Of a stretch of DNA of 64,000 bases, positions 2,660 to 15,433 are shown one piece after another; within the stretch, counting starts at the first letter, position 1, and each line of letters begins with the position of its first letter. Source of the stretch: Lacibacter sp. H375. Its GTDB lineage: Bacteria > Bacteroidota > Bacteroidia > Chitinophagales > Chitinophagaceae. The notes under the pieces were generated by a model. It ran no database searches. It was not told where the DNA came from and worked only from the letters and a program-made list of their open reading frames with translations. The position numbers and the translations under genes were made by a program. Location: positions 992,001 to 1,056,000 of the forward strand of contig NZ_JBBKTT010000001.1 in the NCBI RefSeq assembly GCF_037892425.1, in the 5' to 3' direction.

Positions 2660-3307
2660 ATGGCTACGCAACAGGTACACGACGATCTTCTCCGCAAGAG
2701 TTATCCTTTATTTGAAGATCAACTTGTTAATGAAATTGAAGAACAAGGTGAATTCAAAACATTTCCTGCTAATGAAATACTAATGCGTAAAGGCCAATAT
2801 ATCCGAAGCACCATGCTGGTATTAAATGGCCTTATCAAGATTTACCGGGAAGATGATGATGGCAATGAGTTTCTCATGTATTATTTAAAACCCGGCGAAG
2901 CCTGTGCGTTATCACTCGTTTGCGCTGCCAAACATGAAGCAAGTCCCATTATGGCGAAAACTGTGGTTGAAACAGAAGTGATGATGGTCCCCGTTGATAC
3001 CATGAGCGAATGGATGGGCAAATTCAAAAGTTGGTACCAGTTTGTAATTGAAACCTATCGTGCACGTTTTGATGAATTACTTGTTACGTTGGATAATGTT
3101 GCTTTCCGTAATATGGATGAGCGTTTGGAATTTTACCTGAAACGTGCAAAGGAAGCACAGGGAACAACGCTGCTCAACATCAGTCACCAGGAAATTGCAC
3201 AGGAGCTGAATACTTCAAGAGAAGTAATATCAAGACTGCTCAAAAAAATGGAGCAGAAAGGGTTGGTTGGATTACAACGCAATGCCATTGAGTTGAAAAA
3301 TTTATAA
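2660..3307 (+). CDS. Crp/Fnr-family transcriptional regulator of the sulfur island
   Basis: A 215-residue regulator with an N-terminal cNMP-like beta-roll (about residues 20-120), a dimer helix and a C-terminal winged HTH near 170-200 (ISHQEIAQELNTSREVISRL). The recognition helix has R-E-V-I-S-R, combining the CRP Arg-Glu...Arg triad that reads TGTGA with the FNR Ser. It lacks the FNR N-terminal Fe-S cysteines. Cysteines 82 and 88 lie in the PGEACALSLVCAA loop, where CRP binds cAMP, hinting at thiol or persulfide sensing (inference). ATG 2660 is preferred over TTG 2654. TGTGA-N6-TCACA boxes sit upstream of the neighbouring sulfur genes, so it is their likely regulator. Confidence 0.9.
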   Translation: MATQQVHDDLLRKSYPLFEDQLVNEIEEQGEFKTFPANEILMRKGQYIRSTMLVLNGLIKIYREDDDGNEFLMYYLKPGEACALSLVCAAKHEASPIMAKTVVETEVMMVPVDTMSEWMGKFKSWYQFVIETYRARFDELLVTLDNVAFRNMDERLEFYLKRAKEAQGTTLLNISHQEIAQELNTSREVISRLLKKMEQKGLVGLQRNAIELKNL

Positions 3308-3318
3308 TTGTTTGCCTG

Positions 3319-3363
3319 TGTGATTTGTATCACCTTCCGCTGCTGAAATTGCATCCACATTTG
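3319..3363 (+). promoter_or_regulatory. Crp/Fnr box plus -7 element of the TauE gene
   Basis: TGTGA-TTTGTA-TCACC at 3319-3334 is a CRP-type palindrome. CACATTTG at 3356-3363 is the -7 candidate. The box centre is 36.5 nt from the last G of the -7 element, the same as in front of the genes at 4371 and 15434. The start point would fall at or beside the ATG at 3368. Confidence 0.6.
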
Positions 3364-3367
3364 CAGC

Positions 3368-4165
3368 ATGGAAATAATCGGATATCTCGCCTCTATTGTT
3401 ATTGGTATTTCGCTTGGTCTTATTGGTGGTGGCGGCTCCATCTTAACAGTACCTGTTTTGGTGTATCTGTTTGGCGTTAATCCTGTATTAGCAACCGCTT
3501 ATTCGTTGTTTATTGTTGGTGCCACCTCACTGGTAGGTGCTTTCCCGAAATACAAACTTGGACTTGTAAATATTAAAACAGCCCTGATTTTTGGCACACC
3601 TGCCATTGCGGCTGTGTATGCAACACGAAAATTTATTGTACCGGCTATTCCTGATGAAGTGTTCAGTATTGCCGGCTTTACAGTAACCAAGCCCGTATTA
3701 ATGATGCTGTTGTTTGCAGTACTGATGGTGTTTGCATCCTATTCCATGATCAAAGGAAAGAATGAAGATGAAAACGGTAACGGCGGGGAACAGAAATTCA
3801 ATTATCCGCTGATACTGGTAGAAGGAACAGTAGTAGGCATCTTGACAGGATTGGTTGGTGCAGGCGGAGGCTTCCTTATTATTCCTGCATTGGTATTACT
3901 CAGTAAACTTCCAATGAAACAAGCAGTTGGAACTTCCTTATTAATTATAGCTGCCAAATCATTGATCGGCTTTTTAGGTGATGTAGGGCATCAGGTCATT
4001 GATTGGAAACTACTCGTTATTGTAACCGTATTGGCCATTACAGGCATTTTCATCGGCAATGCTTTCAGCAAAAAAGTATCAGGCGATAAATTGAAAAAAT
4101 GGTTTGGCTGGTTTGTGTTGGTGATGGGCATTTACATCATTGTGAAAGAATTGTTTATTCGTTAA
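3368..4165 (+). CDS. TauE/SafE-family (TSUP) sulfite/sulfonate exporter
   Basis: A 265-residue membrane protein with about eight hydrophobic segments in two inverted halves. Each half begins with the family's glycine-rich turn (GLIGGGGSILTVPVL near residue 18 and GLVGAGGGFLIIPAL near 165). A charged loop (KGKNEDENGNGGEQK) separates the halves. TSUP proteins export sulfite, sulfoacetate or thiosulfate. Lying directly before a persulfide dioxygenase, which makes sulfite, export of sulfite is the best inference. It has its own Crp/Fnr box. Confidence 0.88.
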   Translation: MEIIGYLASIVIGISLGLIGGGGSILTVPVLVYLFGVNPVLATAYSLFIVGATSLVGAFPKYKLGLVNIKTALIFGTPAIAAVYATRKFIVPAIPDEVFSIAGFTVTKPVLMMLLFAVLMVFASYSMIKGKNEDENGNGGEQKFNYPLILVEGTVVGILTGLVGAGGGFLIIPALVLLSKLPMKQAVGTSLLIIAAKSLIGFLGDVGHQVIDWKLLVIVTVLAITGIFIGNAFSKKVSGDKLKKWFGWFVLVMGIYIIVKELFIR

Positions 4166-4189
4166 ACTTCTTTTACTCCAGCGCATTTG

Positions 4190-4234
4190 TGTGACTAAAG
4201 TCATAGTTCACAGCCTTCTGAAAACACAACTTTG
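4190..4234 (+). promoter_or_regulatory. Crp/Fnr box plus -7 element of the persulfide dioxygenase gene
   Basis: TGTGA-CTAAAG-TCATA at 4190-4205 is followed by CAACTTTG at 4227-4234. The box centre lies 36.5 nt before the last G, identical to the copies at 3319 and 15357. The predicted start near 4240 gives a leader of about 130 nt. Confidence 0.6.
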
Positions 4235-4370
4235 CATTATTCAAGTCAACAATAAAAAAATAAAAAAGCATATGAAATGAGCCATAAAATTTTTTAGCGA
4301 TTATATCTACGGGTGATGAAAATTTATGGCGAATAACATGTGGCAAAAAAAACAATTAAAAAATATACAC

Positions 4371-5792
4371 ATGAAAATTGAACAGATCTATACCGGTTGC
4401 CTGGCACAAGGTGCTTATTATATCGAAAGCGAAGGCGAGGCCGTAGTGATCGATCCATTGCGTGAAGTAAAGCCATATCTCGAAAAAGCAAAGCGCAATA
4501 ATGCCAAGATAAAGTATGTATTTGAAACACACTTCCACGCTGATTTTGTGAGTGGACATATTGATCTTGCAAAAGAATCAGGTGCAAAGATCGTGTACGG
4601 CCCAAATGCAAAACCCGATTTCGATTTTCATTCAGCAAAAGATGGTGAAGAGTTGAAAGTAGGGAAGCTTACATTCAAAGTGTTGCATACACCCGGCCAT
4701 ACAATGGAAAGTACCTGTTACCTGTTGAAAGATGAACATGGAAAAGATATTGCCATTTTCACCGGTGATACATTGTTCATAGGTGATGTTGGTCGCCCCG
4801 ATCTTGCACAAAAAATTGTAGCCGATCTAACACAGGATATGCTTTCAGGTTATTTGTATGAATCATTGCGTAACAAGATCATGCCACTTTCTGATGATTT
4901 GATTGTATATCCGGCGCATGGTGCCGGCAGCGCATGTGGTAAGAACATGAGTAAAGAAACATCTGATACATTGGGGCATCAAAAAGCAACCAACTATGCG
5001 TTGCGTGCCAATATGACCAAAGAAGAATTTATTAAAGAAGTTACAACAGGCTTAGTGGCACCTCCCCAATATTTCCCGCTGAATGTAATGATGAATATTC
5101 ATGGTTACGATAGTATTGAAGAAGTATTGAAGCGTGGTACGCAAGCTCTAAGTCCTGATGCATTTGAAACGGCAGCGAATGAAACCGGAGCGTTGATTCT
5201 TGATACAAGAGATGCCGAAGTATTTGCAAAAGGATTTGTGCCAAATTCCATTAACATTGGTATTGATGGAAGTTTTGCGCCATGGGTTGGCAGTATGATT
5301 CCCGATGTAAAACAGGAAATACTTCTTGTTACTGATGAAGGGCGTGAAGAAGAAGTGGTTACCCGTTTGGCCCGTGTTGGTTACGATTATTCGCTGGGTT
5401 ATCTGAAAGGTGGTTTCAATGCATGGAGAGAAGCAGGTAAAGAAATTGATCAGATCAAACGTGTATCTGCAGAGGAACTGGCAGAGATTGTTACAAAAGA
5501 TAACAATGCAAACATTCTTGATGTACGTAAAGAAAGCGAGTTCCAGAGTGAGCACCTGTTTAATGTAGAGAATGCACCGTTAGATTTTATTAACGACAGC
5601 ATGTTAAAGGTTGATAAAAACAAAACCTATTATGTGCATTGTGCAGGTGGTTACCGTTCTATGATTTTTGTTTCCATTCTTCGTGCACGAGGATATGATA
5701 ATTTAATTGATGTGCGTGGCGGTTTTAAAGCAATTAAAGAAAGCGGCAAGTTTAATTTAACCGATTACGTTTGTCCGACTACACTTTTATAA
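4371..5792 (+). CDS. Persulfide dioxygenase-rhodanese fusion (ETHE1/CstB type)
   Basis: A 473-residue cytoplasmic protein in three parts. Residues 1-235 are a metallo-beta-lactamase-fold ETHE1 domain (THFHADFVSGH with H54, H56 and D58; HTPGHT; FTGDTLFIGDVGRPD), a mononuclear-iron persulfide dioxygenase that oxidises glutathione, CoA or low-molecular persulfides to sulfite. Residues about 265-360 are a rhodanese fold without a catalytic Cys. Residues about 375-470 are an active rhodanese (YVHCAGGYRS, C424) that can pass sulfite to thiosulfate. The order matches CstB of Staphylococcus aureus. I start at the ATG at 4371; the in-frame ATG at 4326 would add a lysine-rich leader not seen in the family. 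A Crp/Fnr box lies upstream. Confidence 0.92.
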   Translation: MKIEQIYTGCLAQGAYYIESEGEAVVIDPLREVKPYLEKAKRNNAKIKYVFETHFHADFVSGHIDLAKESGAKIVYGPNAKPDFDFHSAKDGEELKVGKLTFKVLHTPGHTMESTCYLLKDEHGKDIAIFTGDTLFIGDVGRPDLAQKIVADLTQDMLSGYLYESLRNKIMPLSDDLIVYPAHGAGSACGKNMSKETSDTLGHQKATNYALRANMTKEEFIKEVTTGLVAPPQYFPLNVMMNIHGYDSIEEVLKRGTQALSPDAFETAANETGALILDTRDAEVFAKGFVPNSINIGIDGSFAPWVGSMIPDVKQEILLVTDEGREEEVVTRLARVGYDYSLGYLKGGFNAWREAGKEIDQIKRVSAEELAEIVTKDNNANILDVRKESEFQSEHLFNVENAPLDFINDSMLKVDKNKTYYVHCAGGYRSMIFVSILRARGYDNLIDVRGGFKAIKESGKFNLTDYVCPTTLL

Positions 5793-5810
5793 TGAGTCAT
5801 TTTTAAACTG

Positions 5811-5850
5811 ATGAAAGGAGGCTCCATAACAACCTCCTTTCATTTCAAAT
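5811..5850 (+). terminator. Intercistronic hairpin after the persulfide dioxygenase gene
   Basis: An 11-bp perfect stem (ATGAAAGGAGG at 5811-5821 with CCTCCTTTCAT at 5833-5843) and an 11-nt loop, followed by only a weak T-rich stretch. It could partly terminate transcription, or protect the mRNA end before the rhodanese genes. Confidence 0.5.
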
Positions 5851-5856
5851 CATACT

Positions 5857-6228
5857 ATGAAAAACCGAATCCTTTTCCTGGCAGTTGGATTTTTTGCTGT
5901 TCTTTCAGCAATTGCTCAAATAAAAAATGTATCGCCTGTTTTTGCTGAAAAGAAATTAAATAAGAAAAAAGTAGTGGTACTGGATGTACGCACCACACAG
6001 GAATTCAACGAAGGACATTTGCCCAAGGCAGTTCATATAGATGTGATGGATTCAGTTGCATTTGTACAACAGATCAATCAGCTAAAAAAAGGAAAGACCT
6101 ACCTGCTTTACTGCAAAAGTGGACGACGCAGCGCCAAGGCAGCAACCATCATGGAGCAACAGGGCTTTCGCCACATCTGGAATATGGAAGGCGGTATCAC
6201 TTCCTGGAAAGGAACAATTAAACAATAA
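5857..6228 (+). CDS. Exported single-domain rhodanese
   Basis: A 123-residue rhodanese with a cleavable signal peptide (about residues 1-21, ending in LSAIAQ). VLDVRTTQEFNEGHLPKA is the family N-terminal signature, and the active-site loop is YCKSGRRS with the catalytic Cys. Exported rhodaneses can take sulfane sulfur from thiosulfate or polysulfide in the periplasm. It is first of three adjacent rhodanese genes and is followed 17 nt later by the next. Confidence 0.9.
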   Translation: MKNRILFLAVGFFAVLSAIAQIKNVSPVFAEKKLNKKKVVVLDVRTTQEFNEGHLPKAVHIDVMDSVAFVQQINQLKKGKTYLLYCKSGRRSAKAATIMEQQGFRHIWNMEGGITSWKGTIKQ

Positions 6229-6245
6229 ACGAAAAACCATTTGAT

Positions 6246-6530
6246 ATGAATCTAAAAGAAATCGTTCAGAACCCACACACAAAGTTTGTGGATGTACGTT
6301 CAAGAGAAGAGTTTGCCGACGGACACTTTCCCGGCGCAACCAATATTCCGCTGCCCGAAATTGCAGCGAAGGCTAACGAGTTGAAAGAGTCTGATAGTCC
6401 GGTAGTTTTGTATTGCCGTTCCGGGGCAAGAAGTACGAATGCATACTTTCTGCTAAAACAACTGGGACTTGAAAATGTACACAATGCAGGTGGCTTGCAA
6501 GATTTACTAACCTTGAAAAACCTCAATTAG
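6246..6530 (+). CDS. Single-domain rhodanese
   Basis: A 94-residue cytoplasmic rhodanese of GlpE size, with FVDVRSREEFADGHFPGA near the N-terminus and the active loop YCRSGARS. It moves sulfane sulfur from thiosulfate or a persulfide to a thiol acceptor. The next gene starts right after its stop, so the two are surely co-transcribed. Its real partner cannot be read from sequence. Confidence 0.9.
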   Translation: MNLKEIVQNPHTKFVDVRSREEFADGHFPGATNIPLPEIAAKANELKESDSPVVLYCRSGARSTNAYFLLKQLGLENVHNAGGLQDLLTLKNLN

Positions 6531-6531
6531 T

Positions 6532-6843
6532 ATGTTCAATTTTATTAAAAAATTATTTGGCCCCGGTACAGATTTTAAAGGATTGCAACAACAAGGTGCA
6601 GTTATAATTGATGTACGTACGCCAGGCGAATTTAGTGGTGGCCATATTAAAGGTGCCATTAACATTCCGGTTGACAGTATTCGTTCAAAGGTCAACGACA
6701 TTAAGAAAAAAGGAAAGCCTGTCATTACCTGTTGCGCCAGTGGAATGCGTAGTGGTTCTGCCACATCTATATTAAAGCAGGCAGGCGTTGAAGCATATAA
6801 CGGCGGATCATGGATCAGCTTACAAAATAAAATAGCATCATGA
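6532..6843 (+). CDS. Single-domain rhodanese
   Basis: A 103-residue cytoplasmic rhodanese. IIDVRTPGEFSGGHIKGAI is followed by an active loop TCCASGMRS with two adjacent Cys; the second is the usual catalytic position. Its stop overlaps the next start (ATGA at 6840-6843), showing translational coupling with the small membrane protein that follows, as if the two form one unit like the rhodanese-membrane fusion YgaP. Confidence 0.9.
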   Translation: MFNFIKKLFGPGTDFKGLQQQGAVIIDVRTPGEFSGGHIKGAINIPVDSIRSKVNDIKKKGKPVITCCASGMRSGSATSILKQAGVEAYNGGSWISLQNKIAS

Positions 6844-7058
6844 TCATCCAATGGTTGAAACAATGGAACGGTATGCGTCTCCTTCGTCTCGGCATCGGTA
6901 TCGCAGCCATTGTACAAGGACTTTATTCGCCTACACCCTTTCTTTGGGCAATTGGTGCTGTATTAGTGATTCAGGCTGTTATGAATATCGGGTGCATGGG
7001 CGGTGCCTGTGCTGTTCCGCAAAACAAACAACAACATAAAAATGAAGACTCTCTTTAA
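6840..7058 (+). CDS. Small membrane protein coupled to rhodanese (DUF2892-like)
   Basis: A 72-residue protein with two hydrophobic segments (about 17-31 and 34-50) and a cysteine motif GCMGGAC at the end of the second helix. The RLLRLGIG start resembles DUF2892, the membrane part of YgaP-type rhodaneses; I hold this assignment loosely. It overlaps the rhodanese before it by 4 nt and the next gene by 17 nt. A role in holding or passing sulfane sulfur at the membrane is inferred. Confidence 0.7.
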   Translation: MIIQWLKQWNGMRLLRLGIGIAAIVQGLYSPTPFLWAIGAVLVIQAVMNIGCMGGACAVPQNKQQHKNEDSL

Positions 7059-7272
7059 AAAAGCAACCTGGGTTTTACCAGGATTAGTGTTGGGTGCTGT
7101 TGGCGGCTTCTTCTATTGGAAATTCGATGGTTGTGATGGTACTTGTTTGATCACTTCAAGCCCCGTAAGAAGTATGATCTATTTCGGGGTGATGGGAGCT
7201 GTTGCCAACAGCATGTTCAAGCCAAAGCAAAAGGAAACAAAAGAACAGGGCGAAGTTTCGAACAACAATTGA
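7042..7272 (+). CDS. Small membrane protein with CDGTC motif (DUF6132-like)
   Basis: A 76-residue protein with two short hydrophobic segments around the motif CDGTCLITSSPVRS and a charged tail (KPKQKETKEQGE). I recall similar proteins as DUF6132, found next to rhodanese and YeeE genes in Bacteroidota; no biochemical function is known to me. I start at ATG 7042; upstream in-frame codons lie inside the previous gene and are not needed. The two-Cys motif next to a membrane helix parallels the neighbour at 6840. Confidence 0.65.
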   Translation: MKTLFKKATWVLPGLVLGAVGGFFYWKFDGCDGTCLITSSPVRSMIYFGVMGAVANSMFKPKQKETKEQGEVSNNN

Positions 7273-7320
7273 TTGTAACCTTTTCTTTCTTCTGTACCTT
7301 ACAGAAACACCTGTTTCCAA

Positions 7321-7364
7321 TGTAATATTTATCACATAATTCCGGCAGGTGGAATTCTACCTTG
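7321..7364 (+). promoter_or_regulatory. Crp/Fnr-like box upstream of the YeeE/YedE pair
   Basis: TGTAA-TATTTA-TCACA at 7321-7336 matches the local box in nine of ten half-site bases. TACCTTG at 7358-7364 is an imperfect -7 element ending 35.5 nt from the box centre, one base off the other copies. Confidence 0.45.
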
Positions 7365-7387
7365 CAAGAACTTAAACGAAACAATTC

Positions 7388-7957
7388 ATGAACCTGATTG
7401 AATTTATTAAACAGCCGTGGCCATGGTATGTAGCTGGTCCATTGATCGGGTTAACAGTGCCCACACTACTCATCATCGGCAACAAAACCTTTGGCATCTC
7501 TTCTTCACTGCGGCATATCTGCGCAGCATGTTTGCCGGCTAAAATTCCTTTCTTTCAATATGATTGGAGAAAAGAAATGTGGAATCTATTTTTTGTAGGT
7601 GGTATTTTATTGGGAGGATTCATTGCGTTTCTCTTTTTGCAAAACCCTGAACCAATGATCGTGAATCCGAAGCTGAGTACAGAGTTAGCCACGTATGGTA
7701 TTACCAATTACGATTCACTTGTTCCAACAGAAGTGTTTAACTGGAGCAGCCTGTTCACACTACGGGGTTTTATCATGATGGTGGTGGGTGGTTTCCTCGT
7801 TGGATTTGGAACACGCTATGCAGGTGGTTGTACAAGCGGACATGCAATTATGGGTATTTCCACTTTACAATGGCCTTCATTGATAGCAACAATCAGTTTT
7901 ATGGTGGGTGGTTTTATTATGGCCAATCTTCTTCTTCCTTTTATTCTTAAACTCTAA
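7388..7957 (+). CDS. YeeE/YedE-family transporter half (sulfur import)
   Basis: A 189-residue membrane protein of the YeeE/YedE (TsuA/PmpA) family with about four or five hydrophobic segments. Conserved cysteines are in [14 protein letters not shown] near residue 45 and in [18 protein letters not shown] near 145, the GGCTSGH signature being diagnostic. YeeE (TsuA) of Escherichia coli takes up thiosulfate by passing it along such cysteines. Here the transporter is split, with the second half in the next gene 6 nt later. It probably brings thiosulfate or sulfane sulfur into the cytoplasm for the rhodaneses. Confidence 0.9.
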
Positions 7958-7963
7958 CGATTC

Positions 7964-8515
7964 ATGGAACAACAAAAAAATATCGCTGAAGAGGAAATAG
8001 TGGTTGAACAAAAACACCATGAATTCCTTACGGAGAATACAGATTTTGAAATGCGATCGATGGATGCTACCTGCTTCAACGAATCAGAACTTCAACATCC
8101 ATGGTGGCATAATTTCAAATATGCGTTTGTAGGATTATTGTTTGGTATTCTCTTCGTAAAAGCAGAAGTGGTTTCCTGGTTTCGTATACAGGAAATGTTT
8201 CGCCTGCAAAGTTTTCACATGTATGGCATCATTGGCTCTGCAGTAGTGGTTGGAATTATCAGTGTGTGGCTTATTAAAAAATTTAAGATCAAAACCATTT
8301 ATGGTGAGCCAATTGAATTCGTTGATAAGAAATTCAATAAAGGTCAAATCTATGGCGGTCTTTTGTTTGGTTTGGGCTGGGCCGTTACCGGCGCTTGCCC
8401 GGGACCGTTATTTGCACAGATAGGAAACGGTGCCACTGTAATTGCCGTAACATTGCTGAGTGCAATTGCCGGTACATGGGTGTATGGTAAGTTCAGAGAA
8501 CAACTGCCTCATTAA
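7964..8515 (+). CDS. YeeE/YedE-family transporter, second half
   Basis: A 183-residue partner of the preceding gene. It has a charged N-terminal tail of about 45 residues (with a Cys in MDATCFNESE), then four hydrophobic segments and the family motif GLGWAVTGACPGPLFAQIG near residue 140, equivalent to the second Cys-containing loop of one-chain YeeE proteins. The long acidic N-tail is unusual and may dock a cytoplasmic sulfur carrier (inference). Confidence 0.9.
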   Translation: MEQQKNIAEEEIVVEQKHHEFLTENTDFEMRSMDATCFNESELQHPWWHNFKYAFVGLLFGILFVKAEVVSWFRIQEMFRLQSFHMYGIIGSAVVVGIISVWLIKKFKIKTIYGEPIEFVDKKFNKGQIYGGLLFGLGWAVTGACPGPLFAQIGNGATVIAVTLLSAIAGTWVYGKFREQLPH

Positions 8516-8531
8516 ATTCGAAACACAGAAA

Positions 8532-9533
8532 GTGAATACACAGAGAACCATACTTCTTTTTATCATTTTACTGTTATTAATTACAGCCACCCAGATTGGT
8601 TGTAATGATTCAGGCAAAGAGGAATCAACTGCAGTTGACTCAACCATTCAGCAAACAGTCTGGATGGGGCCGCCTGCAAATCAAATCCCGTATTATTCAA
8701 GAGAAGATGGAAAACTCATTTGGTATGGTCATCAACTTATATCCAACACATCAAAGTATCTCGGTCCAAAAGGTTCTGTGTTGCAAATAACAAATGGCAT
8801 GAACTGCCAGAACTGTCATTTAGATGCGGGCACCAAACCCTGGGGCAATAATTACAGTGCTGTTTATACAACATATCCAAAATTCAGAGATCGTTCGGGA
8901 GGTATTGAAACCATTTATAAACGTGTGAACGATTGCATTGAACGGAGTTTGAATGGAACAGCTCTTGACACAACGTCAAAAGAGATGCAGGCCATTTATG
9001 CTTATATCAAATGGCTGGGCGAAGATTTAAAAAAAGGTGATAAACCAAAAGGCTCCGGCATTATAGAACTTCCATACCTCAATCGTGCTGCTGATCCTGA
9101 AAAAGGAAAAATTGTATATGTACAGAAATGCCAGACTTGTCATACTGCAAACGGGGAGGGGCAATTAAATGCAGATGGCATTACTTATACTTATCCGCCC
9201 TTGTGGGGTAAAAACAGTTATAATGTTGGTGCAGGTTTATTTCGTTTATCACGCTTTGCAGGTTATGTAAAAAATAATATGCCGCAGGGAACCGATTATC
9301 ATTCACCACAATTAAGCGATGAGGAAGCATGGGATGTAGCAGCATTCGTTAACTCGCAGCCACGCCCCTCAAAAGATCTGAGCAGCGATTGGCCCGATAT
9401 TTCAAAGAAACCGATCGATCATCCGTTTGGTCCATATGCAGATACGTTTAGTGAACAACAACATAAGTACGGCCCATTCGCCCCAATTAAAGAATACAGA
9501 GAACAACAAAAGAAATCCGGTACTAAAAAATAA
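8532..9533 (+). CDS. tsdA: TsdA-type dihaem thiosulfate dehydrogenase, lipoprotein
   Basis: TsdA enzymes couple two thiosulfates to tetrathionate in the periplasm, giving electrons to haem; some run in reverse. This 334-residue protein has two c-type haem sites, C92QNCH and C200QTCH, and family blocks RVNDCIERSLNG (C135 is the likely unusual Cys ligand of haem 1), EMQAIYAYIKWLG, YPPLWG, NVGAGLFRL, NNMPQG and the late EAWDVAAFVNSQPRP. I choose GTG 8532: it starts a signal peptide ending in GC (lipoprotein-like), while the longer frame runs back into the transporter gene. It is likely the electron entry point of the island. Confidence 0.88.
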   Translation: MNTQRTILLFIILLLLITATQIGCNDSGKEESTAVDSTIQQTVWMGPPANQIPYYSREDGKLIWYGHQLISNTSKYLGPKGSVLQITNGMNCQNCHLDAGTKPWGNNYSAVYTTYPKFRDRSGGIETIYKRVNDCIERSLNGTALDTTSKEMQAIYAYIKWLGEDLKKGDKPKGSGIIELPYLNRAADPEKGKIVYVQKCQTCHTANGEGQLNADGITYTYPPLWGKNSYNVGAGLFRLSRFAGYVKNNMPQGTDYHSPQLSDEEAWDVAAFVNSQPRPSKDLSSDWPDISKKPIDHPFGPYADTFSEQQHKYGPFAPIKEYREQQKKSGTKK

Positions 9534-9547
9534 TTGTTAACACAAGC

Positions 9548-11335
9548 ATGCCAGAAAAAAATACTACACATCTCCACAATTGTTCATGTAATAGTTGTTC
9601 AGATGGTGAACAGATTGCACCCATCTCTCAAAACTCACGAAGAGATTTTTTTAAATCTGCATCCGCTATTGCAGCAGGTGCGGTATTGCCCGCATCCATC
9701 GTGAATGCAGTTAGTGGCGATGATTATCATGCAAAAGAATTGTTCGGAAATAAAGCGTTGAAAGATGGTAAAGCAAACGTAATTACTCTACTGCACACAT
9801 CCGATATTCACGCACAGCTTCACACACACGATGAATTCTTTTTTGAAGATGGAAATGCAGTTTATAAAAAGCGTGGAGGCTTTGCCGTATTGAAAACAAT
9901 GCTGCACACACTCAAAGCACAAAACCCAACCAACACAATTATTATTGATGGTGGCGATTGTTTCCAGGGTGGTGGCGTAGCAGCATTAACTGAAGGAAAA
10001 GGCATTGTTCCACTTATAAACAATATTGGATACGATCTTATTCTTCCCGGTAACTGGGAAGTGGTGTATGGTAAAGATGCCATGCTGAAAGATCTTGGTG
10101 GTTACAACAGTGCAAAGATCTGTGCCAATATGTTTCATGATAATTCGGATGAAAATAAGAACGACCTTATTTTTCCTCCTTACTGGACAAAAATGTTGGG
10201 TGGAGTTAAAATTGGTTTCATTGGTTATAACGATCCGCTTACACCCAAACGTCAATCGCCTGCATACAGTAAGGGCATAACGTTTACAAAACCGGAAATG
10301 AATGTGGCGAAGTATATCAAAATTCTTAAAGAGTATGAGAAGTGTGCAATGGTATTCTTAGTTACACATATGGGTTTGGCGCAACAGGTTGATCTTGCCA
10401 ACCAACCCGAATTACAGGGAGTTGATTATATACTTGGTGCCGATACACATGAACGTGTACGAGTACCAATACAAGGTAAGTATGCAAAGGTAACTGAGCC
10501 GGGTGCCTTTGGTTCTTTTGTTGCAAGGCTTGATATTGTTATTGAGAATGGACAGATAAAAGATGAGAATTATCAATTGCTTGATGTAGATCCGGAAAAA
10601 TATAAGCCTGATCCTGCAATGGAAAGGCTGGTTGAAGAAGTAAGTGCTCCACATAAAAAAGAACTCAATAAAGTAATTGGCAAAACCAAAACAACATTGG
10701 TACGCTATTATGTTATTGAAAACCCAATGGACAATTTGATCACGGATGCATTGATGTGGAAGTTTAAAGATGCAAACGTTGATGTGGTGGTGAGTAATGG
10801 TTTTCGTTTTTGTCCGCCGTTGGTTGCAGATGCAAAAAAAGGATATGCAGAGATCACCAATGATTTTTTATGGAGCATGCTCCCGGTTGAAAGTGATGTA
10901 AAGATGGGCGAAGTGAGCGGTGCACAGTTACATGATTGGATGGAACAGGAGTTGCACAATGTCTTTGCAAAAGATCCGGCCAAACGTTTTGGAGGTTGGG
11001 TGGTTCGTTTCAAAGGAATGGAAATGAACTTCACCATGAATAATGATTTGGGCAAACGTGTAAACCGGATCACTATTAATGGCAAGCCGTTAGATAAAAA
11101 CAAACAGTATACCATGCTCGCCTGCGAACGTGAAGGTGATCCTGATGATACTTTATGCCGTTTAGATAAGGTAAAGAACCCACGCAAACCCGGCTATACT
11201 TTACATGGAATTATGCGTGAATACCTGGCTGCACATCCAATGGTAGCACCAAAAATTGAAGGCCGTGCAACAGCAACCGATGCCCCGTCAACATTATTAT
11301 CGCAATTGGAAGGATATAATTATACATTTATCTGA
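9548..11335 (+). CDS. SoxB-like metallophosphoesterase/5'-nucleotidase-family enzyme, Tat-exported
   Basis: A 595-residue protein of the SoxB/UshA family. A Tat signal (SRRDFFKSASAIAAG, about residues 29-45) is preceded by a Cys cluster, CSCNSC at 12-17. The metallophosphoesterase domain shows LLHTSDIHAQL, IDGGDCFQGGG, LPGNWEVVYG, VTHMG and GADTHE; the C-terminal domain has SNGFRFCPPL. In classical 5'-nucleotidases the motif is GNHE; here Trp replaces the His, as I recall for SoxB, which releases sulfate from carrier-bound S-sulfocysteine. No SoxYZ carrier is nearby, so the true substrate is open. It sits 14 nt after tsdA and before a DsrE gene. Confidence 0.82.
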   Translation: MPEKNTTHLHNCSCNSCSDGEQIAPISQNSRRDFFKSASAIAAGAVLPASIVNAVSGDDYHAKELFGNKALKDGKANVITLLHTSDIHAQLHTHDEFFFEDGNAVYKKRGGFAVLKTMLHTLKAQNPTNTIIIDGGDCFQGGGVAALTEGKGIVPLINNIGYDLILPGNWEVVYGKDAMLKDLGGYNSAKICANMFHDNSDENKNDLIFPPYWTKMLGGVKIGFIGYNDPLTPKRQSPAYSKGITFTKPEMNVAKYIKILKEYEKCAMVFLVTHMGLAQQVDLANQPELQGVDYILGADTHERVRVPIQGKYAKVTEPGAFGSFVARLDIVIENGQIKDENYQLLDVDPEKYKPDPAMERLVEEVSAPHKKELNKVIGKTKTTLVRYYVIENPMDNLITDALMWKFKDANVDVVVSNGFRFCPPLVADAKKGYAEITNDFLWSMLPVESDVKMGEVSGAQLHDWMEQELHNVFAKDPAKRFGGWVVRFKGMEMNFTMNNDLGKRVNRITINGKPLDKNKQYTMLACEREGDPDDTLCRLDKVKNPRKPGYTLHGIMREYLAAHPMVAPKIEGRATATDAPSTLLSQLEGYNYTFI

Positions 11336-11348
11336 TAAAACAACTCAT

Positions 11349-11756
11349 ATGCAAGGATTAAAATTCTTACTCGTATCAGCACTGGTTATCAGTTCATCAT
11401 TTTTAAAGGCACAATCAAAAATTGTTTGGGAAATGGCATCGGGTGATACTGCCCAGCAACGTATCCTGTTCAGACAGGTAGGTAATGTACTTGCAGCTGC
11501 TCCTGATACAAAAATTGAAATTGTATTTCATGGAAATGCTGTTTGGGGATTGCTGAAGGACACTGGTTATTTTAAAGAACAGATTATTGGCTTTCATAAA
11601 AAGGGAGTAGTAATGGCTGTTTGTAACAATGCTTTAAAAATGAGGAATATTAAAACAGACAGAGTGATACCCGAAGGAACCGTTGTTCCTGTTGCCATTC
11701 TTGAATTAGTAAAGAAACAGGAAGAAGGCTGGAGCTATATTAAAGCAGCCAATTGA
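11349..11756 (+). CDS. Exported DsrE-family protein
   Basis: A 135-residue DsrE/DsrF-like protein with a signal peptide (about 1-20, ending in FLKAQ). It keeps the fold's pattern: KIEIVFHGNAV, GVVMAVCNNALKMRNI with the single conserved Cys, and a C-terminal ILELVKKQEEGWSYIKA. DsrE proteins carry sulfur as a persulfide. A periplasmic version next to TsdA and the SoxB-like enzyme suggests it carries or senses sulfane sulfur outside the membrane. I start at ATG 11349, since the longer frame overlaps the previous gene. Confidence 0.85.
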   Translation: MQGLKFLLVSALVISSSFLKAQSKIVWEMASGDTAQQRILFRQVGNVLAAAPDTKIEIVFHGNAVWGLLKDTGYFKEQIIGFHKKGVVMAVCNNALKMRNIKTDRVIPEGTVVPVAILELVKKQEEGWSYIKAAN

Positions 11757-11779
11757 TCTGATTGAAAAGAGGAGTGTGA

Positions 11780-13024
11780 ATGATGAAGCAAGGTTTGCAC
11801 GAAAATAGAAATCAATTTATCCTGCTGGTGCTTGTAAATGCATTCGTAGGTGCAATGGTTGGTTTAGAACGAACCGTAATGCCCGATTATGCAGCTGCAC
11901 GTTTTCAAATGGATTCAACTGTTGCATTGGTTTCATTTATTGCCGCCTTTGGTACAACCAAAGCAATCTTCAATTTGCTCACCGGTTATTTACACCAACA
12001 TTATAATCGCAAACAAATCTTATTACTTGGCTGGGCAGCCGCAATACCTGTTCCTTTTCTGTTACTCTATGCACAAGACTGGTGGATGGTGATTGTCGCC
12101 AATATTTTTCTGGGCATCAATCAAGGGTTGGCATGGTCATCAACAGTGGTCATGAAAGTTGATTTAGTAGGAACGAAGAACCGTGGACTGGCAATGGGCA
12201 TTAATGAATTTGCAGGTTATGTAGCAGTTGGGTTAGCCGGGTATCTTGCAACCAGTCTTGCTCATACATATGGTGCAGGATTTTATCCGTTTGTACCAGG
12301 TATCTTTTTTGTAGTGATAGGTTTTTTATTATCATGGTTATTGGTAAAAGATACCACAGCATTTGTAACACATGAACAGCAAGCAACGGAACAACGAGCA
12401 TTCAAATCGCTTTGGAAAGAAGTAAGCTTCCGTCATTTTAACATGGGCAGTGTGAACATCAATGGGTTTATTAATAATCTGAACGATGGTGTGCTGTGGG
12501 GTTTGTTGCCCATCTGGTTATTATCGAACGGTTACAGCATTCTAGAAACAGGAAGTATTGCTGCTATCTATCCGGCCGTGTGGGGCATCAGTCAATTGTT
12601 TGCAGGAAAACTGGGGGATCATTTTTGCAAAAAACAATTGCTTACAGTCGGTATGTTGTTGCAGGCTGCAGGTATTGTTCTTCTTGTAATTGGCACTGCA
12701 AAATTATTTGTGATCAGTGCTATGCTGTTGATGGGATTGGGAACAGGTTTGGTGTATCCAAACTTCCTCACGGTTATTGCAGAAAATCTTTCTCCCGTTC
12801 AGCGTTCAAAAGGGTTAAGCATTTTTCGTTTCTGGAGAGATCTTGGTTATGTTGCCGGTGCGTTAGGTGCAGGACTTATTGCAGAACTCTTCAGCATACC
12901 CATTGCGTTTACAGTTGTTGCAGCTCTCACAGCAGCCGCCGGCATTATGGCCAACCTGCGCATGTGCTGCACCTTTAAATTATTATGGCGCAGCCATACC
13001 TGCACGGAAGCTGCTGCATTTTGA
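11780..13024 (+). CDS. Major facilitator superfamily transporter
   Basis: A 414-residue MFS protein with about 12 hydrophobic helices and the loop 2-3 region GYLHQHYNRKQILLLG in place of the classical GxLaDRxGRR. It ends in a short Cys-containing tail (RSHTCTEAAAF). The start is ATG 11780 (ATG 11783 is also possible); an AGAGGAG stretch at 11768-11774 may help. It is the last plus-strand gene of the sulfur block, so transport of a sulfur compound is possible but not shown by any motif. Confidence 0.8.
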   Translation: MMKQGLHENRNQFILLVLVNAFVGAMVGLERTVMPDYAAARFQMDSTVALVSFIAAFGTTKAIFNLLTGYLHQHYNRKQILLLGWAAAIPVPFLLLYAQDWWMVIVANIFLGINQGLAWSSTVVMKVDLVGTKNRGLAMGINEFAGYVAVGLAGYLATSLAHTYGAGFYPFVPGIFFVVIGFLLSWLLVKDTTAFVTHEQQATEQRAFKSLWKEVSFRHFNMGSVNINGFINNLNDGVLWGLLPIWLLSNGYSILETGSIAAIYPAVWGISQLFAGKLGDHFCKKQLLTVGMLLQAAGIVLLVIGTAKLFVISAMLLMGLGTGLVYPNFLTVIAENLSPVQRSKGLSIFRFWRDLGYVAGALGAGLIAELFSIPIAFTVVAALTAAAGIMANLRMCCTFKLLWRSHTCTEAAAF

Positions 13025-13059
13025 ACTGCTTTACCTAAACAAAACAAATACAATCACAG

Positions 13060-13542
13060 CTATATAAACAGCATGTGAACTCCTTCGCCTTCGCTTCTTT
13101 TATAAAAATCACTAACGGTTATAATATCATCAACACCTTCATACAGATCTTCTTCTTTGTAATGGAACATATCAAACGCAAGTTTGCAAGCCCACATTTT
13201 TACACCGGATGCATATAAAATATCAAGGAACTCAGGAACTTCCGGCATATCTACTTTTTCCATTTCTTTTTTCATCATAGTTGTTGCCAGTGCTTCCATA
13301 CCGGGGAGCCCGCCAATCATCGTTGGCATGTGCATAGCAGGATTACCTACAGTGGCAATATGCAGGCTATCCATTTTCTTTTTGTTAATTGCCTCCAATC
13401 CAAAGAAGGTAAAGAATAACTCAGCTTCAATTCCTTCCATACGTGCACCATTAGCTAATACAAAAGCAGCATATACATTTTCCAATGATGCTTTTGATAA
13501 GATGATCATCATCTTTTTTATTTTTCCATTATTCTCGGTCAT
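13060..13542 (-). CDS. DsrE2-like sulfur carrier protein
   Basis: A 160-residue DsrE/DrsH-type protein. The N-terminal KKMMIILSKASLENVYAAF strand-helix begins the fold. A methionine-rich middle (MHMPTMIGGLPGMEALATTMM) is followed by KMWACKLAFDMF, carrying the one conserved Cys, and a VSDFYKRSEGEGVHMLFI end. DsrE2 proteins pass persulfide sulfur between rhodanese, TusA and DsrC. I use the ATG at 13542; longer starts run into the DsrC gene. It is the last gene of a three-gene operon with DsrC and an SQR-like enzyme. Confidence 0.85.
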   Translation of the reverse strand: MTENNGKIKKMMIILSKASLENVYAAFVLANGARMEGIEAELFFTFFGLEAINKKKMDSLHIATVGNPAMHMPTMIGGLPGMEALATTMMKKEMEKVDMPEVPEFLDILYASGVKMWACKLAFDMFHYKEEDLYEGVDDIITVSDFYKRSEGEGVHMLFI

Positions 13543-13561
13543 GGCTTTTAATTTTTGATTG

Positions 13562-13870
13562 TTAAATACAACTTGCAGGCTTGGGTATGCCGGCAATTTT
13601 TGTTGAAGTTTTCAATGGTGCATTGGGAAATAAGGAATAGAATTCTTTAATATCCACCACACCGCTTTTACCTACACGCCTGATGCTGAGTGCCACCTGG
13701 TTCTGCTGTTCTTTTTGCAGATATTTCAGAACTTCCCAATGGCGGGGTGTTAGATCAATGTTGGCTTCAGATGCTAACTCTGTTCCAACATTCTCATCCC
13801 ATTGGCTGAAATCAGTTAAATAACCTTCTTCGTTAACGGTGATTATTTTACCGGCTATTGTCTTTTCCAT
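13562..13870 (-). CDS. DsrC/TusE-family sulfur carrier
   Basis: A 102-residue DsrC/TusE protein. The ending, GIPKPASCI, is the flexible arm with the penultimate catalytic Cys (C101). Inner blocks include DENVGTELASEANIDLTPRHWEV and the basic RRVGKSGV region. The second arm Cys of sulfate-reducer DsrC, about ten residues earlier, is absent, so it resembles TusE or single-Cys DsrC-like relay proteins. No dsrAB or tusBCD genes are nearby. It probably accepts sulfane sulfur from the DsrE2-like partner encoded 20 nt downstream. Confidence 0.92.
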   Translation of the reverse strand: MEKTIAGKIITVNEEGYLTDFSQWDENVGTELASEANIDLTPRHWEVLKYLQKEQQNQVALSIRRVGKSGVVDIKEFYSLFPNAPLKTSTKIAGIPKPASCI

Positions 13871-13895
13871 AATATGTTTTTAATTAGTGAATGAT

Positions 13896-15131
13896 TTAGT
13901 TATAATGTTTTCCGCTTTCGCTCATGGTTGCTGATACAAACGGAATATGAGTTCCTTTTAGCAGTACATTCCAATAGATCCAGCGAAAGGCGAGTTTACC
14001 CATGTGATTCATGCGGCTTTCTTTCAACAAACGCAACGGACCAATTCCTGCAAAAGGAAAACTACCTTCTACCGGTTCGTGTGTATAGTTGAAGTCGATG
14101 AGCAATGCTTTACCGCCGCCTGTTTCAATAAAACAGTTTGCATGTCCATCGAATTCTTCTTTCAATGGTTCAGCTTTTACATACCTCAGAATATTTTCTG
14201 TTAAGATCTCTGCTTCAAAGTGTGCAACAGACCCTGCTTTTGATGCAGGTATATTACTTGCGTCGCCAATTACAAATACGTTTGCAAAATTTTTCGATTG
14301 CAGTGTTGATTTGTGAGTAGGCACATAGTTCAGATCATCGCCCATTCCTGAACGTTCCATCAATTCATCGCCTTTATTGGTAGGAACTGTAACAAGAATA
14401 TCAAACTGAATTTCTCTGCCGCCATAATCAACAATGGTTTTGCTTTCATTATCTACATGCTCAATCGCAAAATCACTTTCAATCTTAATTCCTTTTTCAT
14501 GCAGTAAATGTTCCAGCGCTTCGGTTGCCTTTGGTTTTGTAAAAGCACCGCTTAATGGCGTTACATAAGTGATCTCAACTTTGTCACGCATGTGTTTATG
14601 CTTAAAGAAAGAATCGGCCAGGAAGGCAAATTCCAATGGCGCAACCGGGCATTTGATTGGCATTTCAGTAATATGCACCACCAGTTTACCTCCTTCCCAA
14701 TCTCTCAATTTGTTGCGTAATGCAAGTGCTCCTTCAAATGTGTAAAAATCAAAAACAGATTTTTGCCATTCTTCACCCTTCATGCCTTCTGTTTCTTCGG
14801 GTGCAATTTTTGCTCCCGTGGCAACAATGAGAATATCATAATTTAATTCAGCACCATCTTTCAATTGAATTTTATTTTCATTTGGAACGATGCGTTCAAT
14901 TTTACGTTTTAACAGCGTTACATCTTTTGGAATAAATTCTTCTATTGTTTTAATGATATCATCAGGAGTGTAAATATCAAACGGGAGAAAAAGATAACCT
15001 GGTTGGTAATGATGCTCTTCACGTTCATCAACAATGGTAATTTGCCAATCGGGTTGTTTTAATTCATGGTGCAGATGATTGGCCATCATGGTTCCCGCAG
15101 TACCAGCTCCCAGTATAACAAGATTTTTCAT
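13896..15131 (-). CDS. Sulfide:quinone oxidoreductase-like FAD protein
   Basis: A 411-residue pyridine-nucleotide-disulfide-type flavoprotein. GAGTAGTMMA at residues 8-17 binds FAD, IVATGAKIAP is the mid motif and VFVIGDASNIPASKAG the second FAD motif. Two cysteines fit SQR redox sites: one in MPIKCPVAPLEF (about residue 160) and one in HANCFIETGGGKAL (about 340). The C-terminus is amphipathic, suiting membrane attachment. SQRs oxidise sulfide to sulfane sulfur and reduce quinone. Being in an operon with DsrC and DsrE2, it may hand the sulfur to them. It could instead be a relative with another sulfur substrate. Confidence 0.8.
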   Translation of the reverse strand: MKNLVILGAGTAGTMMANHLHHELKQPDWQITIVDEREEHHYQPGYLFLPFDIYTPDDIIKTIEEFIPKDVTLLKRKIERIVPNENKIQLKDGAELNYDILIVATGAKIAPEETEGMKGEEWQKSVFDFYTFEGALALRNKLRDWEGGKLVVHITEMPIKCPVAPLEFAFLADSFFKHKHMRDKVEITYVTPLSGAFTKPKATEALEHLLHEKGIKIESDFAIEHVDNESKTIVDYGGREIQFDILVTVPTNKGDELMERSGMGDDLNYVPTHKSTLQSKNFANVFVIGDASNIPASKAGSVAHFEAEILTENILRYVKAEPLKEEFDGHANCFIETGGGKALLIDFNYTHEPVEGSFPFAGIGPLRLLKESRMNHMGKLAFRWIYWNVLLKGTHIPFVSATMSESGKHYN

Positions 15132-15149
15132 TTGCTGATTGTTTTGTTG

Positions 15150-15165
15150 TGTGATTTATGACATA
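15150..15165 (-). promoter_or_regulatory. Weak Crp/Fnr-like half-site box before the SQR-like gene
   Basis: TGTGA-TTTATG-ACATA has one good half (TGTGA) and one poor half, 19 nt upstream of the SQR-like start. Its nearness to the start codon would fit a repressing or start-proximal role more than class II activation. Confidence 0.25.
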
Positions 15166-15267
15166 GTAAAAATCGATCAGCAACAGTTATTGTTTAATGA
15201 CCTGTATGCGCATGCAGAATGATACTTGTCAAGAAAAAATGGAGAATCATTTAAAATGTATTAGTTG

Positions 15268-15283
15268 TGTGATTTTTGTCACA
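15268..15283. promoter_or_regulatory. Perfect Crp/Fnr palindrome in the divergent region
   Basis: TGTGA-TTTTTG-TCACA has both half-sites at full CRP consensus. It lies 137 nt from the SQR-like start and 150 nt from the CoADR start. It may serve the SQR-like operon or act from afar on both. Confidence 0.6.
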
Positions 15284-15310
15284 ACGAAAAACGCTAGAAC
15301 ACTTGTTGTA

Positions 15311-15326
15311 TGTGACTTTTAGCACA
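15311..15326. promoter_or_regulatory. Crp/Fnr box in the divergent region
   Basis: TGTGA-CTTTTA-GCACA matches nine of ten half-site bases. Its centre is 43 nt from the centre of the perfect palindrome at 15268 and 46 nt from the box at 15357, about four helical turns in each case. Confidence 0.5.
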
Positions 15327-15356
15327 TATCAGCCCCTTTCCAATAACAGGTTTCTA

Positions 15357-15401
15357 CATGATTAATATCACAAGATGCACTTACCACTTGCGCTACTTTT
15401 G
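15357..15401 (+). promoter_or_regulatory. Crp/Fnr box plus -7 element of the CoADR-rhodanese gene
   Basis: CATGA-TTAATA-TCACA at 15357-15372 is followed by TACTTTTG at 15394-15401. The box centre to last G is 36.5 nt, equal to the copies at 3319 and 4190, and places the box near -42, the class II activator position. The leader would be about 26 nt. Confidence 0.6.
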
Positions 15402-15433
15402 ACACATTAAGAAAGTATAAAAATAGATTAGTA

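Follow-up and report, generated by a model that had tools for sequence, protein, structure and literature searches.

The sulfur genes of Lacibacter sp. H375 lie beside a gene for a Crp/Fnr-family protein, and TGTGA-type boxes precede several of them. This locus raises the question of whether the boxes belong to one regulon, set at a fixed distance from the promoters and read by the neighboring protein. Comparison of related loci suggests that the regulator, in this strain and in many relatives, appears to turn on reactive-sulfur genes from one exact distance. The features below lie in the window, the whole 64-kb stretch of DNA that was analyzed.

2660–3307, + strand: Crp/Fnr-family regulator, 215 aa from ATG 2660 (Pfam cNMP_binding, HTH_Crp_2 and Crp above cut-off)
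2903–2905, 2921–2923 and 3221–3223, + strand: regulator codons for C82, C88 and E188, the last in the recognition helix R187-E188...R192
3319–3334, + strand: Crp/Fnr box TGTGATTTGTATCACC, center 3326.5, 36.5 nt from G 3363
3356–3363, + strand: −7 element CACATTTG, CAnnTTTG type, upstream of TauE
3368–4165, + strand: TauE/SafE-family exporter (PF01925, 150.6 bits)
4190–4205, + strand: Crp/Fnr box TGTGACTAAAGTCATA, center 4197.5, 36.5 nt from G 4234
4227–4234, + strand: −7 element CAACTTTG, CAnnTTTG type
4371–5792, + strand: metallo-beta-lactamase/rhodanese protein (Pfam Lactamase_B, Rhodanese), probable persulfide dioxygenase
5857–6843, + strand: three consecutive rhodanese-domain proteins (Pfam)
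7321–7336, + strand: Crp/Fnr box TGTAATATTTATCACA, center 35.5 nt from G 7364
7358–7365, + strand: −7 element TACCTTGC, TAnnTTGY type
7388–8515, + strand: YeeE/YedE-type sulfur transporter, split over two genes (PF04143)
8508–11756, + strand: cytochrome c (SoxA/TsdA-like), SoxB-like protein and DsrE-like protein (profile matches)
13060–15131, − strand: DsrE-2-like, DsrC/TusE-like and SQR-like genes
15150–15165, no strand assigned: imperfect box TGTGATTTATGACATA near the start of the SQR-like gene; no class II register found
15268–15283, no strand assigned: perfect palindrome TGTGATTTTTGTCACA, far from the CoADR −7 element
15311–15326, no strand assigned: box TGTGACTTTTAGCACA
15357–15372, + strand: Crp/Fnr box CATGATTAATATCACA, center 15364.5, 36.5 nt from G 15401
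15394–15401, + strand: −7 element TACTTTTG, TAnnTTTG type
15434–17128, + strand: pyridine nucleotide-disulfide oxidoreductase fused to rhodanese (Pfam Pyr_redox_2, Pyr_redox_dim, Rhodanese), which we read as the CoA-disulfide/persulfide reductase type (CoADR)

The start of the persulfide dioxygenase gene is more likely at 4371 (MKIEQIYTGC) than at 4326; the corresponding ORFs of relatives begin with MKIEQIYTGC or near variants. The SoxB-like protein scores 265 bits against the SoxB model, below its cut-off of 550.

Boxes and promoter register in the island

The original prediction placed TGTGA-N6-TCACA boxes at 3319, 4190 and 15357, the center of each standing exactly 36.5 nt before a TAnnTTTG-like −7 element, counted to its last G. 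The distance is exact in all three cases. The boxes are present, but with 1, 1 and 2 mismatches, respectively. Among these promoters, the element at 15394–15401 is the sole TAnnTTTG, but the other two are CAnnTTTG and lack the T of TA. The box at 7321, upstream of YeeE, had been described as one base off. This is true of the TTG but not of the TA of its −7 element, which lies 29.5 nt from the box center, in the same register as the TA at 15394; the TTG alone is shifted, one base nearer the box. Passages of a published promoter study give TAnnTTGY as a variant of the −7 element (PMC9723704). The box at 7321 is kept in loci L211 and L033 and is absent from L212/L034 and L213/L035, which represent two Lacibacter genomes.

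In the same passages, a start-site map of Flavobacterium psychrophilum places TAnnTTTG at −12 to −5 (PMC9723704). The box center would therefore be at −41.5, the class II position, with transcription predicted to start 5 nt after the last G of the −7 element. The TauE start would then be 3368, the A of the ATG, giving a leaderless transcript. By the same start rule, the palindrome at 15268, kept in L211 and L212, lies at about −130.5 relative to the CoADR promoter; it is perfect, but too far from the −7 element of CoADR for a class II site.

With the last G at −5, the downstream edge of the box falls at −34. The suggested replacement of the −33 element comes down to overlap: the edge reaches the −33 region, and no TTTG occurs at about −33 in the 68 non-redundant sites. 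A search for the −33 element by TTG-to-TAnnTTTG distance gave no clear peak, and a weak G stands at column 17, about −33 (36/68 sites, 0.46 bits).

Class II promoters of E. coli CRP and FNR have a two-fold TGTGA-type box at −41.5 that overlaps the upstream promoter element, and their regulators carry an R-E...R helix. The Lacibacter system is alike in its two-fold TGTGA-type box, its predicted −41.5 position and its R-E...R helix. In contrast to E. coli CRP, the window protein has an alanine for the pocket arginine and two pocket cysteines. The promoters also differ, as Bacteroidota have their own primary sigma factor and −33/−7 elements, according to passages of two sources (PMC9723704, PMC7366714). 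If the register is exactly −41.5 on promoters with no recognizable −35/−33 element, the polymerase, and not the sequence read by sigma, would seem to fix class II geometry. A Crp-family activator of the same phylum, the Bacteroides master regulator of carbohydrate use BT4338, likewise uses a two-fold box, placed upstream of the promoter's −7 sequence, but this box is TATGTTnTAnAACATA, its role is in carbon limitation, and the passages of that paper give no spacing rule (PMC6989115).

Recurrence of the spacing in related loci

The original prediction considered equal spacing hard to obtain by chance. The boxes by themselves are not enriched, either in the window (38 matches with at most 2 mismatches against 40.6 expected) or genome-wide (at ≤1 mismatch 122, with 113 in the reversed control). 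Nor is the combination of a box with TTTG at gap 25 enriched genome-wide (178 against 160 at ≤3 mismatches); a gap of 25 nt corresponds to 36.5 nt from the box center to the last G. Since box counts alone gave no support for a regulon, the spacing was tested in relatives, where the excess is clear. Among 80 named related loci, many of which belong to the single genus Flavobacterium, gap 25 was found in 126 of 1179 oriented boxes, against 3–30 at each of 44 other gaps. In the non-redundant set, 64 boxes have gap 25, compared with a mean of 8.4 and a maximum of 16 elsewhere.

The same peak appears in a set of 40 loci from other families that was collected once the spacing prediction had been written down. 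A symmetric box with ≤2 mismatches plus AnnTTTG gave 19 at gap 25 against a mean of 1.0 and a maximum of 7, and the plain TGTGA box plus TTTG gave 13 against 3.1 and 9; a strict site is present in only 6 of the 40. None of four control palindromes peaks at gap 25 in the same 80 loci. One of them, TGAGT-N6-ACTCA, clumps at gap 37 (14) and gap 34 (8), so relatedness alone could produce a moderate peak. Although the search made no use of the A of (C/T)AnnTTTG, 65 of the 68 non-redundant sites have it, and no column from the box flank to the −7 element (20–36) exceeds 0.19 bits. At the level of sequence, these comparisons show that the geometry is fixed and that further families of the phylum share it.

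The genes that follow the geometry are also clear. In 161 loci there are 150 fixed-geometry sites. An ORF follows 148 of them, and in 130 cases it encodes persulfide dioxygenase/rhodanese, TauE, YeeE or SQR-like proteins, the main targets being the persulfide dioxygenase/rhodanese and TauE genes. The gap of the box at 3319–3334 recurs upstream of 59 TauE genes, and that of the box at 15357 is also found upstream of CoADR in L035, L036 and L037 and in genomes G160 and G083. The box-spacing pair is thus enriched upstream of orthologous genes, the outcome on which the original prediction had staked itself. By eye, no convincing box was found 36.5 nt from a −7-like sequence for the SQR-like gene (minus strand, 15131–15434). 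The geometry is not confined to the island, and in relatives the targets include some OsmC, peroxiredoxin and thioredoxin genes.

The regulator, its proposed mode of action and its possible signal

The protein encoded at 2660 belongs to the Crp/Fnr superfamily by its scores for PF00027 (40.7, cut-off 27.5), PF13545 (45.1, cut-off 27) and PF00325 (28.9, cut-off 21). It falls far below the cut-offs of the CRP equivalog NF008732 (51.6 bits against 266) and of FNR NF008365 (25.2 against 228); its best NCBIfam match, FtrB NF006901, reaches 52.9 bits against 211. FNR is defined by its cluster cysteines, and this regulator, counted from ATG 2660, has two cysteines in all, C82 and C88. The phosphate pocket of CRP for cAMP contains Arg-Ser; in the columns of profile alignments, A94-S95 stands in its place. 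S95 is found in 119 of 121 aligned regulators, and at position 94, 111 of the 121 have K, T, A, P or Q, while some relatives (L007, L011) have R. By E-value, the first solved structure in both sequence and fold searches is 3dv8, a Crp/Fnr-family protein of Eubacterium rectale whose cysteines align at both places, but it shares 23% identity and a whole-chain TM-score of 0.55; chain 4ev0 reaches a higher TM-score (0.72) in the fold search.

We propose that a Crp/Fnr dimer acts as a class II activator of reactive-sulfur genes from a fixed box at −41.5 and receives its signal through C82/C88, a reading to which we give a probability of roughly three in four. The dimer would bind TGTRAY-N4-RTYACA centered at −41.5 in promoters carrying the −7 box (C/T)AnnTTTG, with the box extending into the −33 region. 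Binding would activate genes for the export, oxidation or reduction of reactive sulfur (TauE, persulfide dioxygenase/rhodanese, YeeE and the disulfide reductase-rhodanese). The signal may be reactive sulfur species sensed via C82, together with C88, in a segment that aligns with the phosphate-binding part of the CRP cAMP pocket.

C82 is present in 121/121 aligned regulators and C88 in 113/121, the conservation expected of a sulfane-sulfur sensor; a cysteine also stands at the C82 place in 38 of 40 other-family loci, by pattern reading and not by column-wise alignment. These cysteines suggest, without proof, that the regulator itself senses reactive sulfur. In the predicted structure the cysteine loop (residues 81–90) has a pLDDT of 56, and the model does not settle the cysteine geometry. 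A switch of two cysteines is not universal: 8 of the 121 regulators have Ser or Gly instead of C88, and many of the 40 loci from other families have a residue other than cysteine there. Together with the OsmC, peroxiredoxin and thioredoxin targets of relatives, this variation makes it possible, if doubtful, that the same regulator and geometry answer to general thiol oxidation, oxygen or a small molecule bound in the former cyclic-nucleotide pocket. The invariance of C82 and the predominance of sulfur genes among the downstream ORFs speak against such a signal.

Regulators of the SqrR/BigR, CstR and FisR types use cysteines to control genes of sulfide oxidation and persulfide dioxygenase. The Lacibacter protein resembles them in its predicted targets and in its cysteines, whose sensing role here is putative, but they belong to families other than Crp/Fnr and several are repressors. 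As many known sulfane-sulfur regulators repress, the box could be a repressor site at which the protein blocks polymerase until sulfur releases it, as with SqrR/BigR or CstR. A repressor tolerates many positions, however, whereas an activator in contact with polymerase should keep to one exact register, and the single register to the −7 element in all locus sets makes repression improbable. If the cysteines do sense sulfane sulfur, the known persulfide sensors would gain a member with the Crp/Fnr fold, and one that activates.

The recognition helix and box position 4

The original prediction also held that the R-E...R helix of the regulator reads TGTGA, and this is strongly supported by covariation. 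Across 201 loci, in which the helix was identified by profile search and which include those where the rule was first seen, 140 of the 142 sites that go with REV-type regulators carry G at box position 4 in one half or both, whereas 0 of the 22 sites of RVV-type regulators do. Residue 188 (E or V) is thus linked in these sequences with box position 4 (G or not), agreeing in 162 of 164 sites. Two E regulators, L083 and L152, have no G at the box. The counting rule yielded no site for 48 of the 143 REV-type loci and 24 of the 42 RVV-type loci. The remaining loci of this count comprise 9 with REA regulators (2 sites, both G), 2 with RVT (no site), 1 with RET (1 site, G), 1 with both helix types (no site) and 3 with an unread helix (2 sites, both with G). 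In L177 and L186, whose regulators are of REA type, the sites read TGTAAC when 2 mismatches are allowed.

In the 40 loci fetched after the E/V rule had been noted, G is present in 8/8 sites against 0/4. The script left the helix unread in 14 of them, which were then read by hand; two of these, L175 and L190, hold a strict site, and both are RVV and lack G. The profile search on all 201 loci supersedes these readings. A tree, reduced from 115 rows to 74 after L252 (two types) and L253, L254 and L275 (helix unread) were dropped, contains three supported independent E/V switches, each with a matching box change; with so few switches the test is not significant (p 0.25).

The island's regulator therefore very probably reads the box, and the host genome encodes one protein of its clade. 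That another Crp/Fnr protein, of cAMP or FNR type, reads the island boxes while the neighboring regulator serves other targets is a quite remote prospect. The island box resembles the CRP site, the host genome holds two more distant matches to the regulator (18–20% identical), and the same geometry occurs elsewhere with TTTGAY-N4-RTCAAA and TGTAAC boxes, but a distant reader would not make residue 188 track box position 4. Chance, or inheritance of the spacing as a block without function, is hardly credible: Flavobacterium loci, the unenriched window boxes and the clumping control speak for it, but the spacer shows no conserved letters, and the gap is common to different genes and repeated in other families.

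More broadly, we hold it an even proposition that these proteins form a phylum-wide activator clade, in which the cyclic-nucleotide pocket has become a cysteine sensor for reactive sulfur, the class II position known from E. coli is kept exactly on the Bacteroidota −7 promoter, and DNA specificity is changed by one E/V switch in the recognition helix, with box position 4 following. Literature on Crp/Fnr, persulfide dioxygenase and Bacteroidota promoters, with subscription journals mostly uncovered, yielded no publication on this regulator or regulon. Activator-dependent promoters of this phylum have been described only sparsely, and the proposed activator would provide a testable promoter code for them, with base-exact predicted starts, candidate regulons from a fixed-gap scan and a half-site predicted from one residue.

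Outside the island, the fixed geometry is found upstream of thioredoxin reductase, DsbD-like and other genes, some of them with boxes of the TTTGAY-N4-RTCAAA or TGTAAC kind; different Crp/Fnr proteins may control these genes. The host-genome matches at 1463332, 1056813 and 3117312 were rejected, as they lie inside opposite-strand ORFs. Candidate sites are those at 2426339 (DsbD_N-like) and 4349895 (thioredoxin reductase), which have the same gap in 4/4 Lacibacter genomes searched, the host's included. At the host thioredoxin gene, a box-like sequence can be seen by eye at gap 24.

Spacing of box and -7 element

The Crp/Fnr regulon proposed in the original prediction is upheld by sequence comparison, from which it appears to have a fixed, class II-like geometry, to be centred on sulfide and persulfide handling and to reach further than had been stated, into several families of the phylum. 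Its parts are of known kinds and their combination is new; we found no published account of the regulon, subscription journals lying mostly outside the search. The island features concerned are as follows.

2660-3307 (+), Crp/Fnr-family regulator, 215 aa
3319, box, one mismatch to TGTGA-N6-TCACA
3368-4165 (+), TauE
4190, box, one mismatch
4371-5792 (+), probable persulfide dioxygenase
7321, fourth box
15268, perfect palindrome
15357, box, two mismatches
15434-17128 (+), putative CoADR, an oxidoreductase-rhodanese fusion

The boxes at 3319, 4190 and 15357 each lie 36.5 nt, centre to last G, from a -7 element (gap 25, counted from box end to TTTG), exactly at the coordinates predicted. Their positions stand, with the mismatches listed above, and the -7 elements are correctly placed, although two of the three read CAnnTTTG rather than TAnnTTTG. 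The element of the fourth box had been called one base off; this is true of its TTG but not of its TA, whose distance of 29.5 nt to the box centre is shared by the TA at 15394. A variant of this kind, TAnnTTGY, is described at -12 to -5, like TAnnTTTG, in a Flavobacterium psychrophilum start-site map (PMC9723704).

In the window, the box alone occurs 38 times with up to two mismatches (40.6 expected), and in the whole genome 122 times with up to one (113 for the reversed control), which by itself proves nothing; requiring TTTG at gap 25 as well, with up to three mismatches allowed, gives 178 against 160 in the genome. A one-mismatch box with full TTTG at gap 25 is found there at three places, the island's 3319 and 4190 and genome position 1463332, the last within an ORF of the opposite strand and rejected. 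The regulon is therefore small here, and the argument has to be made from related genomes.

Relatives of the regulator were found in 175 of 244 genomes of the family (E ≤ 1e-20) and, by profile at 1e-40, in 99 of 296 genomes of the phylum. A profile from 24 regulators gave 587 confirmed loci, of which the best 80 (Lacibacter, other Chitinophagaceae, Flavobacterium) were taken. These 80 hold 1179 oriented boxes with up to two mismatches, of which 126 have TTTG at gap 25, each of 44 other gaps giving 3-30; with at most one mismatch, the counts are 29 of 181 boxes versus at most 5 elsewhere. None of four control palindromes peaks at gap 25 in the same best 80 loci. One of them does pile up at two other gaps, 37 (14) and 34 (8), which calls for caution over relatedness. 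When the sites of the best 80 are clustered at 60% identity, 64 are left at gap 25, against 8.4 on average and 16 at most. Clustering at 75% leaves 68 sites. Their consensus is TGTRAY-WWWW-RTYAC, followed by columns 20-36, none of them above 0.19 bits, and by (C/T)AnnTTTG, whose A, not part of the search, is present in 65. The enrichment repeats in 40 loci from families other than f1 (the window's) and f5, which were retrieved once the prediction had been noted: gap 25 has 19 cases of a symmetric box (up to two mismatches) with AnnTTTG versus a mean of 1.0, the next-highest gap being 26 (maximum 7), and strict sites are found in 6 of the 40.

In E. coli CRP and FNR, the class II position is -41.5. 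The F. psychrophilum map places TAnnTTTG at -12 to -5 (PMC9723704). By this rule the last G would be -5, and the box would be centred on -41.5 and end at -34, at the edge of the region described for the -33 TTTG of Bacteroides in PMC7366714, which also reports that the -33 motif was not found in F. johnsoniae. No TTTG was seen at about -33 in the 68 non-redundant sites (best 80 of 587 loci), 36 of which have a weak G at column 17. The same rule puts the predicted TauE start on the A of its ATG (3368), giving a putatively leaderless mRNA. For the persulfide dioxygenase, the ORF list begins at 4326; relatives begin MKIEQIYTGC, corresponding to 4371, which would leave a leader of about 130 nt past the predicted start.

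The predicted palindrome at 15268 is present and kept in two other loci (L211, L212); it has no -7 element at class II distance that we could find. Upstream of CoADR (15268-15401) there are three tandem boxes, conserved in part within Lacibacter; for a start at 15406 they would be centred at about -130.5, -87.5 and -41.5. They resemble class III arrangements.

Target genes and the recognition helix

A scan of 161 loci (symmetric box with at most one mismatch, gap 25, AnnTTTG) yielded 150 sites, 148 with an ORF downstream: 65 of the persulfide dioxygenase/rhodanese group, 59 TauE, 4 YeeE, 2 SQR-like and 18 others. Those looked up among the 18 include outer-membrane efflux, OsmC, thioredoxin, peroxiredoxin, YgaP-like, TetR and OprD-like proteins; one is the clade's own regulator gene (L203).

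The recognition helix of the window regulator reads R-E-V-I-S-R, and V replaces E in some relatives. When the search leaves box position 4 and its mirror open, and the loci where the rule was first seen are included, 140 of 142 sites of E-type (REV) regulators (95 of 143 loci with a site) carry G on one half or both, versus 0 of 22 of V-type (RVV) regulators (18 of 42 loci). In 40 loci retrieved once the rule had been noted, the counts are 8/8 versus 0/4; the helix was unread in 14 of these, and later reading by hand found no strict site contrary to the rule. In a tree from which the helix residues were left out there are three supported independent E/V switches, all three with the matching box change (p 0.25, three being too few for a test). 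Against the rule, E regulators L083 and L152 lack the G, and REA-type regulators L177 and L186 have TGTAAC boxes at two mismatches.

Cysteines and the signal

Counted from the ATG at 2660, the window regulator has two cysteines, C82, present in 121 of 121 aligned regulators, and C88, in 113. By alignment, both lie in a stretch corresponding to the phosphate-binding segment of CRP. The Eubacterium rectale protein 3dv8, which ranks first by E-value in the sequence search and in the fold search, carries cysteines at both positions. The regulator's neighbourhood is rich in sulfur genes. We infer a reactive sulfur species as the most likely signal, but a one-cysteine sensor or a thiol-redox sensor would fit almost as well. 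In the 40 loci of distant families, a cysteine read by pattern is kept at the C82 place in 38, while Gly, Ala, Thr or Ser is common where C88 would be. Only the first cysteine is kept (such as ESCIMSFLGG) in L139, L142, L144, L145, L148, L149 and many of L243-L282; what C88 contributes could be judged by comparison with these natural relatives.

The same geometry outside the island

Gap 25 is kept before a thioredoxin reductase and a DsbD_N-like gene in each of the four Lacibacter genomes covered, including that of the window; the gene downstream of the latter site was read in three of them, and in G160 only gap and box were seen.

C1:4349895-4349939 (-), own genome (L313); also L307, L315, L316: TGTAAY-N4-RTTACA, gap 25, before thioredoxin reductase
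C1:2426339, own genome (L123, L314); also L284, L298 and G160 C1:2456890: TGTGAC...TGACA, gap 25, before the DsbD_N-like gene
G083 C1:125924 (L301); similar sites in G213 and G160: FNR-like TTTGAY-N4-RTCAAA, gap 25 before TTTG, YiaAB-domain gene

The DsbD_N-like gene is a likely regulon member, and the TGTAAY box may belong to another Crp/Fnr protein. The FNR-like box suggests that several Crp/Fnr specificities may share the geometry. A perfect TGTGATTTGCTTCACA palindrome also occurs at C1:4730476 of the own genome (L126), directly upstream of an ORF that, by its first residues, looks like a type II-C Cas9.
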